From Xylanibacter rarus (GTDB lineage: Bacteria; Bacteroidota; Bacteroidia; Bacteroidales; Bacteroidaceae): a stretch of DNA of 64,000 nt. Numbering within the stretch: position 1 is the first letter of the stretch; every line of letters starts with the position of its first letter. Below, piece by piece: positions 54,953 through 58,513 of this stretch. Under the pieces are notes generated by a model. The model was not told the DNA's origin, did not search any database, and saw only the letters and a list, made by a program, of their open reading frames with translations. The position numbers and the translations under genes are program-made. Where the stretch lies: positions 1 to 64,000 of the forward strand of contig NZ_LFQU01000016.1 in assembly GCF_001275135.1 (NCBI RefSeq), read 5' to 3'.

Positions 54953-54990
54953 TTTGTTGATTTAAAAATATGTTCGTATATTTGCGAACA
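54953..54990 (+). promoter_or_regulatory. arsR promoter with superimposed operator
   Basis: -33 TTTG (54953-54956), 20-bp spacer, -7 TATATTTG (54977-54984). The palindrome TGTTCG (54971-54976) / CGAACA (54985-54990) exactly brackets the -7 box, its 8-bp spacer being the box itself. This is a clear autoregulatory operator position for the repressor encoded 12 bases downstream. Confidence 0.85.
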
Positions 54991-55002
54991 ATATTTGATT
55001 AT

Positions 55003-55332
55003 ATGGATGAAAAAAGGGATTATACAATAAAGCAGGAAAGACTTGCCAGATTTGCAAAAGCATTGGGCCATCCGGCACGTATTGCCATAATGAATTTCTT
55101 GGCAAAGCAAAAAACTTGCTATTTTGGTGACATTAATGAAGAGCTTCCTATTGCAAAGGCTACTGTTTCTCAGCATCTAAAGGAACTTAAAGATGCCGGT
55201 CTGATACAGGGTGAGGTAGAGGCTCCTAAAGTGAAATATTGTATTAATAATGAGAATTGGAATTTGGCTAAAGCCTTATTCTCAGAATTCTTTGGGCAAT
55301 GCATATGTAAAGCAGGAGGGTGTTGCGACTGA
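55003..55332 (+). CDS. arsR: ArsR/SmtB-family metalloregulatory repressor
   Basis: Winged-helix repressor that leaves DNA on binding trivalent arsenic. The 109-residue protein starts MDEKRDYTIKQERLARFAKALGHPARIAIMNFLA, has the recognition helix segment PIAKATVSQHLKELKDAGLIQG, and Cys residues at KTCYFGD and at the C-terminus (FGQCICKAGGCCD), the latter a likely As(III) site. The upstream in-frame ATG at 54970 lies before the transcription start. Two further copies of its putative operator stand in front of the following genes, making a three-operator regulon. Confidence 0.9.
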   Translation: MDEKRDYTIKQERLARFAKALGHPARIAIMNFLAKQKTCYFGDINEELPIAKATVSQHLKELKDAGLIQGEVEAPKVKYCINNENWNLAKALFSEFFGQCICKAGGCCD

Positions 55333-55355
55333 CAACCTTCTCTTTTTATGTCTTA

Positions 55356-55375
55356 TGTTCGTTGTTTTGCGAATA
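55356..55375 (+). promoter_or_regulatory. Second ArsR operator copy
   Basis: TGTTCG (55356-55361), N8, CGAATA (55370-55375), the same geometry as the arsR operator with one changed arm base. The spacer TTGTTTTG differs by one base from the -7 consensus. It precedes the small thioredoxin-like gene by 25 bases. Confidence 0.7.
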
Positions 55376-55400
55376 ACGTTTAACTAATAAATATTGTAAA

Positions 55401-55631
55401 ATGGAAATTAAAGTTTTAGGTACTGGATGTGCAAATTGTAGAGCACTTTATTCTGCGGTAGAGCAGGTTGTTAATGAGTTAGGCTTAAAAGCTGATTTAG
55501 TGAAAGAGGAGGATTTGATGAAAATAATGGAATATAACGTCATGAGTCTTCCTGCTTTGGTTGTTGATGGAAAAGTTGTAGCCAAAGGACGTATAACTAA
55601 AGATGAGATACGCACAATTTTGACAAAATAA
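55401..55631 (+). CDS. Small thioredoxin-like redox protein (ArsE-like)
   Basis: A 76-residue thioredoxin-fold protein with an N-terminal CxxC (GTGCANCRAL), as in the TM0996/MTH895 family, and a cis-Pro loop (SLPALVVDGKV). In gene order and size it resembles ArsE of the nitroarsenical-reducing arsEFG operon of Shewanella. That assignment is by position and size, from memory, and not proven. It is 13 bases upstream of the next gene. Confidence 0.7.
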   Translation: MEIKVLGTGCANCRALYSAVEQVVNELGLKADLVKEEDLMKIMEYNVMSLPALVVDGKVVAKGRITKDEIRTILTK

Positions 55632-55644
55632 GAATATTGAAATT

Positions 55645-56049
55645 ATGAAGAAATTCGTGTTGCTTTCATTATTGTGCATGTTCTTGTCTACAGGATGGGC
55701 TTTTGCACAAACCGGCAAGTATGTTGAGGTTATTTATTTTCATGGCAAACAGCGATGTCCGACATGTAGAGCTATTGAAAAATACACCAAAGAAGTTGTG
55801 TATAACGATTTTGCCAAGTTTGTCAAGAGCGGCAAAGTACGTTTCAAAGAGGTTGATATTTCTACACCACAAGGCGAAAAGATAGCCGATAAATATCGTG
55901 TCAGCTGGTCTTCGTTATATGTAAACGGATGGAATAACGGAAAAGAAAAAAGGAACGACCTGACACGTATGGGTTTTAAGTATGCCAGAAATAATACGGC
56001 ACAATTTAAAACCGAGCTTAAGAAAAAGATTAATCAGTTGTTGAAATAG
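55645..56049 (+). CDS. Periplasmic thioredoxin-fold protein, ArsF-like nitroreductase subunit family
   Basis: A 134-residue protein with signal peptide (MKKFVLLSLLCMFLSTGWAFA) and the motif HGKQRCPTCRAIEKYTKEV, a CxxC redox site in a thioredoxin-like fold, followed by DISTPQGEKIADKYRVSWSSLYVNGW. This matches the family annotated as nitrophenyl-compound nitroreductase subunit ArsF. With the preceding gene it may reduce nitroaromatic arsenicals, and the product would then be exported by the next gene. Function is inferred from context. Confidence 0.65.
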   Translation: MKKFVLLSLLCMFLSTGWAFAQTGKYVEVIYFHGKQRCPTCRAIEKYTKEVVYNDFAKFVKSGKVRFKEVDISTPQGEKIADKYRVSWSSLYVNGWNNGKEKRNDLTRMGFKYARNNTAQFKTELKKKINQLLK

Positions 56050-56058
56050 CATTTACGT

Positions 56059-56772
56059 ATGGAATACTTGCAAAGCTTGCTTGATAGCAGCGAGATACCT
56101 GTTGTTACAGCATTTTTGCTTGGGCTGCTTACAGCTGTAAGTCCTTGCCCTCTTGCAACCAATATTACTGCAATAGGTTTTATCAGTAAAAATCTTGACA
56201 GCCGTAATCGCATATTCTTGAATGGTTTGTTATACACAGCCGGCCGTATGATTGCGTATTCCGTCCTTGGCGCAATACTTATAGTGTTGCTTAGGCGTGG
56301 AGCCGACATGTTTTTTATACAAAAAGGTGTTAGCGAGTGGGGCGAGCTGCTTCTTGCTCCAGCATTGGTTCTAATCGGCTTGTTTATGCTTTTTAGCGAC
56401 AAACTTCATTTGCCGAAATTTGGCTTCAGTGCCTCGGAAAGGACTGAAAGGCTGAAAGGAGCATGGGGCAGCCTTCTTCTTGGGATATTATTTGCTATGG
56501 CATTTTGTCCTACAAGTGGACTGTTTTATTTTGGTATGCTTATTCCTATGGCTGCTATGGAAGGTGAGGGCTATTTCCTGCCCGTTGTCTATGCCCTGGC
56601 TACAGGCTTGCCGGTCATGCTGGCGGCATGGGTATTAGCCTATAGTGTGTCCGGAATAGGAAAATTCTATAATAAAATGCAAGTCTTTCAGAAATGGTTC
56701 AGCCGTATAGTTGCAGTTGTGTTTATATTTGTCGGAATATATTATGGCTTGATGATGTATAATTTGATATGA
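56059..56772 (+). CDS. CcdA-like permease, ArsG-type aromatic arsenical efflux
   Basis: Integral membrane protein of the CcdA/DsbD superfamily, 237 residues with six or seven helices and Cys in SPCPLATN and AFCPTSG. Downstream of arsE/F-like genes this architecture fits ArsG, an efflux permease for trivalent aminoaromatic arsenicals. An alternative is a cytochrome-c biogenesis-type electron conduit feeding the periplasmic thioredoxin, which is structurally equally compatible. Overlaps the next gene by four bases (ATGA). Confidence 0.7.
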   Translation: MEYLQSLLDSSEIPVVTAFLLGLLTAVSPCPLATNITAIGFISKNLDSRNRIFLNGLLYTAGRMIAYSVLGAILIVLLRRGADMFFIQKGVSEWGELLLAPALVLIGLFMLFSDKLHLPKFGFSASERTERLKGAWGSLLLGILFAMAFCPTSGLFYFGMLIPMAAMEGEGYFLPVVYALATGLPVMLAAWVLAYSVSGIGKFYNKMQVFQKWFSRIVAVVFIFVGIYYGLMMYNLI

Positions 56773-57215
56773 AAATTTTGATATTGTGTACCGGAAACAG
56801 TTGCCGGAGTCAAATTGCGCATGGTTTCTTACAGTCGTTTGACGATAGTCTTTATGTACGTTCAGCCGGAACAAAGCCGGCTGAACAGGTAAACTCGAAA
56901 GCTGTGGCCGTAATGAAAGAGGCCGGAGTTGACATAAGTAGTCATATTCCTGTGAATGTGATGGAATATCTTGATGAGTATTGGGATTACGTCATAACAG
57001 TATGTTCCGATGCCGATGCAACATGTCCGGCATTTAAAGGCAGGGTGGGCAAGAGGCTGCATATCGGTTTTGATGATCCTTCAAGATTGTCGGGTGACGT
57101 AAATTTTATTATGACGGAATTTAGGAGAGTGCGCGACGATATTAAAAATGCCTTTGCCAGATTTTATCTGACAGAAATAAAAAAAGCGGAACAGCCCCGC
57201 TACGTGTGTGAATAG
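56769..57215 (+). CDS. arsC: Arsenate reductase, low-molecular-weight phosphatase type
   Basis: Reduces arsenate to arsenite. The 148-residue protein has the phosphatase-like P-loop CTGNSCRS (residues 7-14) with the catalytic Cys, and further Cys at VCSDADATCP that match the thioredoxin-coupled cascade of Staphylococcus-type ArsC. Asp in DDPSRLSGD is the general acid. Its start overlaps the upstream permease gene, indicating coupling. Confidence 0.9.
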   Translation: MKILILCTGNSCRSQIAHGFLQSFDDSLYVRSAGTKPAEQVNSKAVAVMKEAGVDISSHIPVNVMEYLDEYWDYVITVCSDADATCPAFKGRVGKRLHIGFDDPSRLSGDVNFIMTEFRRVRDDIKNAFARFYLTEIKKAEQPRYVCE

Positions 57216-57232
57216 TATTTTTTTATATTTTC

Positions 57233-57252
57233 TGTTCGTATTTTTACAAACA
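57233..57252 (+). promoter_or_regulatory. Third ArsR operator copy
   Basis: TGTTCG (57233-57238), spacer TATTTTTA, CAAACA (57247-57252): the same 6-8-6 geometry, one arm base changed. The spacer differs from the -7 box by its last base. It precedes the ArsP-type permease by 16 bases. Confidence 0.65.
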
Positions 57253-57268
57253 TAAAAGATGTGATATT

Positions 57269-58237
57269 ATGATACAAAGTTTTGCAGATTGGCTTGTGTA
57301 TGATGTGTTTGGTCTTAATGCAGGTACGGCGTTGGGATCGTCAGTTAATTTCTTTTTTTATGATACGATTAAAATATTGCTGCTGTTGCTTCTGATTAGT
57401 ATAATCATGGGCATTATTAATGCATATTTTCCAATAGAGCGTCTGCGCGAATATCTGGTTTCGCGTAAGTTATATGGCTTGCAGTATTTTTTCGCTTCGC
57501 TGTTTGGTGCAATAACACCATTCTGTTCCTGTTCGTCAATACCATTGTTTATAGGCTTCGTAAAGGGCGGAATACCATTGGGAGTTACTTTTGCATATCT
57601 TATAACCTCACCATTGGTAAATGAGGTGGCTGTAGCAATGTTTATCGGAACATTTGGCATAAGGATAACTGCCATATATGTAATAAGCGGCATTTTACTT
57701 GGAATGATTGGCGGTTACATTCTGGGAAAAATGAGATTGGAGCGTTATCTGAGCGATTGGGTAAGGCAGATTCAACTTAATTCCATCGCCGGTTCTAATG
57801 CATGGGAACGAGATAATACTCCGTTCATGCAGCGTTTGCCGATAATAGTAAAAGAATCGTTAGGTATAGTTAAGGGTGTGTTGCTTTATGTGGTAATAGG
57901 TATTGGCATTGGGGCTTTCATGCATGGTTATGTACCAGAAGGCTTTTTTGAACAGTATATGTCAGAGACAAACTGGTTTGCTGTTCCTCTTTCTGTTCTG
58001 TTTGCAGTTCCCATGTATGCCAATGCAGCAGGAATAGTGCCTGTTATTGAGGTGTTTGTGGCAAAAGGCATTCCTGTGGGCACGGCTCTTGCTTTTATGA
58101 TGGCAGTTGTGGGCTTGTCTTTGCCGGAAGCAACACTTCTTAAAAAAGTTATGACATGGCGTCTCATCGGCATTTTCTTTGGGACAATAACGTTATTTAT
58201 AATTATCTCCGGTTACTTGTTCAACATCATCTTGTGA
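57269..58237 (+). CDS. ArsP-type permease (DUF318 family), trivalent organoarsenical export
   Basis: A 322-residue polytopic membrane protein with eight or nine helices. The family segment ITPFCSCSSIPLFIGFVKGGIPLG carries a Cys-x-Cys pair, and the C-terminal half shows the related motif MYANAAGIVPVIEVFVAKGIPVG. Permeases of this family (ArsP) export methylarsenite and trivalent roxarsone. The position after an arsC and operator copy supports arsenical export, though related proteins carry other metals. It has its own operator/promoter copy. Confidence 0.8.
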   Translation: MIQSFADWLVYDVFGLNAGTALGSSVNFFFYDTIKILLLLLLISIIMGIINAYFPIERLREYLVSRKLYGLQYFFASLFGAITPFCSCSSIPLFIGFVKGGIPLGVTFAYLITSPLVNEVAVAMFIGTFGIRITAIYVISGILLGMIGGYILGKMRLERYLSDWVRQIQLNSIAGSNAWERDNTPFMQRLPIIVKESLGIVKGVLLYVVIGIGIGAFMHGYVPEGFFEQYMSETNWFAVPLSVLFAVPMYANAAGIVPVIEVFVAKGIPVGTALAFMMAVVGLSLPEATLLKKVMTWRLIGIFFGTITLFIIISGYLFNIIL

Positions 58238-58513
58238 TATCTTGTTACAAATTAGGCTGTCCAGTTCAGGGCGTATGATGTTGAATGGTCATATGCGGTT
58301 GTTCGTAAATAGGACAATTGTTAATAGCGTAAGTAGTAAAAAGTTTTGTCATTATTTTTTTCTGTTCTAGAAAAAATGTTCCGTGTTATTCTTAATAAAA
58401 GCCGTAATGTAAAGCGGCTTTTATTGAGTTTTATGTCCTTTTTCACTGATTTTACTTTGAAAAATCAGTCGTTTTTTACTTAAAATGTGCTGAGTTTTGT
58501 TGCAAAATACATT
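58238..58513. other. Intergenic region with terminator
   Basis: Contains a terminator hairpin AATAAAAGCCG (58394-58404) / CGGCTTTTATT (58415-58425). The rest has no gene. A weaker stem CTGATTTT/AAAATCAG follows near 58447-58469. Confidence 0.5.
58394..58425 (+). terminator. Terminator after the arsenical cluster
   Basis: 11-bp perfect stem AATAAAAGCCG/CGGCTTTTATT with T-rich 3' end. Confidence 0.8.

Follow-up and report, generated by a model that had tools for sequence, protein, structure and literature searches.

Autorepression of ars operons by repressors of the ArsR/SmtB family is the closest described counterpart of the locus considered here: arsR comes first, a palindromic operator lies at its own promoter, and the resistance genes follow downstream. 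The locus, contained in a stretch of 64,000 nucleotides (the window), shares these traits but departs from the scheme, as its operator shares bases with the -7 box of the promoter and two more operators lie inside the cluster. A second ArsR site placed directly after arsR has a precedent in engineered arsenic reporters (Stocker et al., 2003, as cited in PMC3918153), where it lowers the background. By contrast, the site found here is natural, recurs in relatives and is accompanied by a T-run at a fixed distance. Repressor sites downstream of the start point are also a trait of roadblock repression, and PMC10310618 lists ArsR among the roadblock proteins, together with PurR, GalR, CcpA and CodY. 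The present case differs in the fixed 8-nt register between T-run and operator, and the roadblocking itself is putative here, being suggested by geometry and conservation. Promoters of Bacteroides fragilis contain TTTG at -33 and TAnnTTTG at -7 (PMC9330008); the promoter of arsR has both boxes, but its -7 box doubles as the spacer of an operator. A search of titles and abstract openings in one library of open-access papers found no description of this operator or layout in Bacteroidetes.

The ars cluster, its repressor and the loci compared

The cluster lies on the forward strand, as do its promoter boxes, operators and T-runs and the hairpin over the arsR stop codon, and its gene order is arsR-E-F-G-C-P according to open reading frames and profile matches. 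The first gene, arsR (55003..55332), encodes a repressor of 109 aa with the winged-helix helix-turn-helix (HTH) of the ArsR/SmtB family (NF033788, 66.8 bits, cut-off 55; PF01022, 47.9 bits, cut-off 22). The mechanically called arsR frame opens at an ATG at position 54970, one base before the first operator, and would read through that operator; the start adopted is 55003, from which the homologues align. Next come an arsE-like gene for a thioredoxin-fold protein (55401..55631; TIGR00412, 106.6 bits, cut-off 62), an arsF-like gene (55645..56049; NF040494, 125.7 bits, cut-off 60) and a gene for an arsG-like permease (56059..56772; NF040495, 283.8 bits, cut-off 200). With the arsE, arsF and arsG families together, all above their cut-offs, the cluster is of the ArsEFG type. 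The arsC-like protein (56769..57215) belongs to the low-molecular-weight phosphatase family (PF01451, 66.5 bits, cut-off 23.2) and scores under the cut-off of the arsenate reductase model (TIGR02691, 112.4 bits vs 174.3), and the arsP-like permease (57269..58237) belongs to the ArsP_1 family (PF03773, 213.6 bits, cut-off 32.3), its matches to the SaoE and SO_0444 models being below their cut-offs. Some 150 nt beyond the permease gene, at 58391-58428, lies a hairpin of 15 pairs that has a T-rich tail and resembles a terminator.

In the whole genome, the ArsR-type HTH models PF01022 and PF12840 have one match each, and both matches are the arsR of the window, which leaves a narrow choice of regulator. 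E. coli ArsR has a cysteine triplet. This triplet is missing from the ArsR of the window, which has only Cys39 in that region; Cys39 and Cys80 are present in 110/110 homologues, and the C-terminal Cys107 in 93 and Cys108 in 91, which makes them candidate thiols for holding an inducer. The inducer is probably As(III) or an organoarsenical, as deduced from the neighbouring genes. Among solved structures, the best sequence match to the protein is YgaV (1.3e-08), which is of little help.

Of 100 related genomes, 39 contained ArsR homologues, with 30 loci among the matches listed, the window's own included, and 80 loci kept from a scan of genome contigs brought the sample to 110. Three loci identical to others over 901 bases (L059, L096 and L110) were left out, as was L108, giving 106; L108 is no copy of L095 and has both a displaced first operator and a second operator, so that including it shifts counts by one. 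Cysteine counts use all 110 loci, and counts of operators, T-runs, hairpins and half-sites use the 106. The first operator (O1) was present within two mismatches in 85 of these and the second (O2) within three mismatches in 83, numbers that fall to 84 and 82 once identical contexts are removed; 29 further loci were found through an O1-type element. Selecting the sites by their arms makes the conservation of the arms in part a product of the selection, which does not hold for the counts of spacers, -33 boxes and T-runs. Many of the loci are related, and thinning was applied in the pooled analysis of T-runs and hairpins only.

An operator wrapped around the -7 box of the arsR promoter

Three sites of the form TGTTCG-N8-CGAACA are found exactly where the initial annotation had placed them. 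O1 (54971..54990), conserved upstream of arsR, is a perfect palindrome; O2 (55356..55375), 23 nt past the arsR stop codon, and O3 (57233..57252) have one mismatch each and recur in relatives, O3 before arsP homologues. The spacers also agree with that description: the first is the -7 box TATATTTG, and the other two, TTGTTTTG and TATTTTTA, are each one base off TAnnTTTG. No other match within two mismatches occurs in the 64 kb, and all three lie in gaps of one arsR cluster. Shuffled windows held a mean of 1.61 matches at up to two mismatches, with at least three in 27 of 100 shuffles, and at up to one mismatch the whole genome has 8 places vs 17 for a reversed control pattern. These counts do not exceed chance, so the numbers from this genome alone prove nothing; it is the confinement of the three sole matches to one arsR cluster, together with their recurrence in relatives, that raises them above chance, and the three sites are real. 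As to a wider regulon, the genome has five one-mismatch places beyond these sites, and the listing of open reading frames covered the surroundings of three of them (L002, L003 and L004).

At O1, the window reads TTTG-20-TATATTTG, a promoter of the Bacteroides type, with the -33 box TTTG at 54953..54956 and, 20 bp from it, the -7 box at 54977..54984 as the spacer of the operator. Among distinct O1 sites of relatives, the spacer is TAnnTTTG in 69/84, and 74/84 have a -33 TTG whose end lies 18-21 bp before the spacer. Over all 106 loci, the operator before arsR has an exact TAnnTTTG spacer in 73, a spacer with 5/6 of these bases in 9 and another spacer in 12. The remaining 12 have no inverted repeat before arsR under the rule used; some of these are near-palindromes with an altered arm (L008) and some have short sequence.

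A natural control is provided by nine of the 106 loci (L030, L032, L033, L071, L078, L084, L086, L088 and L095), several of them close relatives of one another, in which the operator is displaced, ending 43 nt or more ahead of arsR, and lacks TAnnTTTG as its spacer. An exact TAnnTTTG lies outside and downstream of the operator in eight of the nine, and in seven the spacer is TA-N4-TA. The position of the -7 box outside the displaced operators indicates that the TTTG of the usual spacer serves the promoter and not the repressor. L098 is an exception to this division: its operator lies 106 nt upstream and still contains TATATTTG. The conservation of TAnnTTTG and of the -33 box, combined with the displaced operators, establishes that O1 does contain the -7 box, as the initial annotation had proposed for a repressor covering this element. 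O1 is thus a clean case of overlap between operator and promoter box, for which the displaced operators serve as natural controls, and it holds whatever the inner operators do. At four arsR loci (L071, L078, L085 and L086), the half-sites are of the ATCG/CGAT type and the operator is displaced by about 84 nt upstream.

The element also marks arsR more widely. The exact 20-mer TGTTCGTANNTTTGCGAACA occurs at 28 places in 27/295 genomes of the order, and its reversed control at none. The window's own copy included, 22 of the 28 precede a same-strand arsR by no more than 200 nt, and three adjoin a divergent arsR (L145, L148 and L168). Three are neither upstream of nor divergent to arsR (L147, L158 and L169); at L147 just 81 bases separate the element from the contig end, and that of L158 lies 39 nt past the stop codon of an arsR on the opposite strand. 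The exact 20-mer stands beside arsR in 25 of 28 cases across the order; some of the genomes that carry it also fed the profile used to recognise arsR. Taken with the sole PF01022 and PF12840 match in the genome, this favours ArsR as the regulator of the operators, an assignment that had been made from position. With the inner 16 bases alone, 91/301 genomes of the family match, the control pattern matches too, and arsR lies downstream in 14 of the 30 loci kept, one of them by a weak match. TTCGTAnnTTTGCGAA was also seen with other outer bases (e.g. ACTTCG..CGAAGT) at L118, L115, L121, L123 and other loci where no arsR was found downstream, and the -7 box may be enclosed in this way by the operators of other repressors.

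Inner operators and the T-run register

O2 was found within three mismatches in 83/106 loci, being absent at that limit in 23/106, and in 25/29 of the further distinct loci. It lies most often about 22 nt past the arsR stop codon, and the genes that follow it vary. For O3, a palindrome within three mismatches is present upstream of 18/51 arsP homologues; upstream of the other 33/51 there is none within that limit.

The initial annotation read the three sites as a regulon of three promoters, and in this it does not hold up, whereas the regulator and the -7 box inside O1 were borne out. Neither O2 nor O3 of the window has a TTG ending 15-25 bp upstream of the spacer, and with their spacers one base off (TATTTTTA at O3) neither has the boxes of a Bacteroides-type promoter. 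Distinct O2 sites of relatives have a TAnnTTTG spacer in 3/82 and a -33 TTG at the right distance in 4/82. A promoter with its -33 box in the O2 spacer and its -7 box at +34 was considered and rejected, since the matching sequences, TAAATTTA or TAACTTTA, occur in some relatives and are not general: at least 5/6 bases of the -7 box are present at +34 in 12/82, and no exact box lies between +26 and +50.

What does accompany the inner operators is a run of T residues in a fixed register. In the window, a T5 run (55343..55347) ends exactly 8 nt upstream of O2 and a T7 run (57218..57224) exactly 8 nt upstream of O3. In the pooled O2 sites, a run of TTT or longer stops exactly 8 nt short of the operator in 88/116, vs 1/85 O1 sites, and the run is kept in 9/14 O2 sites after thinning to ArsR proteins below 70% identity. 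At this spot the coding strand reads TTT in 92/116 O2 sites and AAA in 0/116. A stricter rule, at least six T in seven positions, was used for O2 gaps, for the further loci and for other operator-like sites. By this rule, 68/82 O2 sites have a T-run within 40 nt upstream, 53 of them at gap 8, and 14 have none; O2 of the window scores gap 6 because of one T that follows an A. Among 25 O2 sites of the further loci, the gap is 8 in 16, 7 in two and 6 in one, with no run in six. Thirty-nine other operator-like sites, several of which lie in genes and are probably chance matches, gave gap 8 in 12, another gap in 3 and no T-run in 24. Ten of these gap-8 runs lie before arsP and two, at L062 and L081, before other ars genes. 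Background spots had T-runs at gaps 7-10 in 6/347. The layout of an operator behind a T-run thus recurs across Bacteroidales after arsR, before arsP and, at two loci, before other ars genes, and across these loci the distance from operator to next gene varies widely.

A weak hairpin, a possible terminator that a generic terminator scan did not list, spans the arsR stop codon in the window (55316..55339). At the end of arsR in relatives, a stem of at least 5 pairs with at least 2 GC pairs precedes 54/82 O2 sites. Among 62 representatives, the energy of the hairpin before the O2 T-run is -5 kcal/mol or below in 30 and above -2 in 20. Judged by eye, the O3 sites of arsP homologues mostly have no hairpin directly upstream, and several divergent loci have a tract that would make a poor terminator, an A-run with no more than 2 to 6 T after it. 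That the T-run is a mere terminator tail was rejected as the full explanation, as the run is also present where no stable hairpin precedes it.

Possible roles of the inner operators

These features are best accommodated by a scheme in which one ArsR dimer species reads O1, O2 and O3. At O1, the repressor would cover the -7 box of an ordinary promoter of the Bacteroides type and block initiation at arsR. O2 and O3 would be internal operators lacking a canonical promoter, at which the bound repressor would meet polymerase arriving from upstream. The polymerase would stall with its active site over the T-run, where the weak U-A hybrid would favour release, and in many relatives the hairpin at the arsR end would help. 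As(III) or an organoarsenical, held by the conserved cysteines, would free ArsR from all three sites. The stall position is plausible in view of a dead EcoRI roadblock, at which E. coli polymerase halts 14 nt short of the EcoRI site (PMC5499547); although measured with another polymerase and another protein, this distance lies within the 9-15 nt that the T-run usually spans, so that the active site would sit on it. The listing of ArsR among roadblock proteins and the effect of a second ArsR site in engineered reporters also favour this scheme. The half-sites of O1 and O2 seem to shift jointly from TTCG to ATCG in a few relatives (L019, L031 and L078), which suggests one reader for both; since the scan required TCG, the joint change is a lead only. 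The general proposition, that one ArsR serves all three sites, acting on initiation at O1 and on elongating polymerase at the inner operators, has about an even chance of being right. The specific version is more tentative, and is offered as a possibility: a repressor-gated termination module, in which an ArsR operator 8 nt behind a U-tract would park polymerase and lead to release, and the inducer would open the initiation and elongation gates together. The 28/116 O2 sites that have no T-run at exactly 8 nt count against such an elongation gate, as do the 23/106 loci that have no O2 within three mismatches, the many sites at which no stable hairpin precedes the run, the A-runs of the divergent loci and the 42/82 O2 spacers close to a -7 box.

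The main rival explanation, somewhat unlikely on balance, is that arsE-arsC and arsP are transcribed from weak ArsR-repressed promoters at O2 and O3, where the operator would enclose a -7 box close to the consensus. It draws on the window spacers, a single base from TAnnTTTG, on the 42/82 O2 spacers that retain at least 5/6 of these bases, and on the similar A-rich stretches that follow O1 and O2; moreover, where arsR ends in a hairpin and T-run, as it does in many relatives, a separate promoter would be useful. A -33 TTG at the right distance is nevertheless rare at O2 (4/82, vs 74/84 at O1), and the second base of the spacer is A in 94% of O1 and T in 51% of O2. Downstream of O2 no alternative -7 box shows general conservation, and the fixed distance of the T-run would be left unexplained.

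A further explanation is that the T-run, or the A/T tract as a whole, plays no part in elongation and is a DNA-shape aid to the binding of ArsR or of a second protein, or else belongs to an unusual promoter as its upstream element. The imperfect right arm of O2 (CGAATT-like) and the divergent loci that have an A-run and a short T-run in place of a stable hairpin would suit this explanation, which is improbable all the same given the strand bias of the run (TTT on the coding strand in 92/116, AAA in 0/116) and its absence from O1 (1/85). Far less credible still is the view that the second and third sites are chance palindromes. The window and genome counts, being within chance, and the 33/51 arsP homologues that have no upstream palindrome within three mismatches would agree with it; what led to its rejection despite those counts is that relatives have the sites too, O2 at the same place and O3 in 18/51.

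Should the elongation gate proposed above prove correct, one regulator would govern initiation and elongation in the same operon by means of one DNA word, and the cluster would present in nature what the builders of reporters made by adding a second ArsR site. The T-run register would then be a simple sequence rule by which elongation gates might be found elsewhere.

Compared with L036, L037, L040, L041 and L043, the ars cluster of L035 is 91-99% identical over 3.4-6.4 kb, and the records involved are named Phocaeicola, Coprobacter, Parabacteroides, Bacteroides and Odoribacter. In these comparisons, about 100-340 bases of one flank match the opposite flank of the second record, as if direct repeats bound the unit. 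From this identity across genera and the flank matches, the unit looks mobile.
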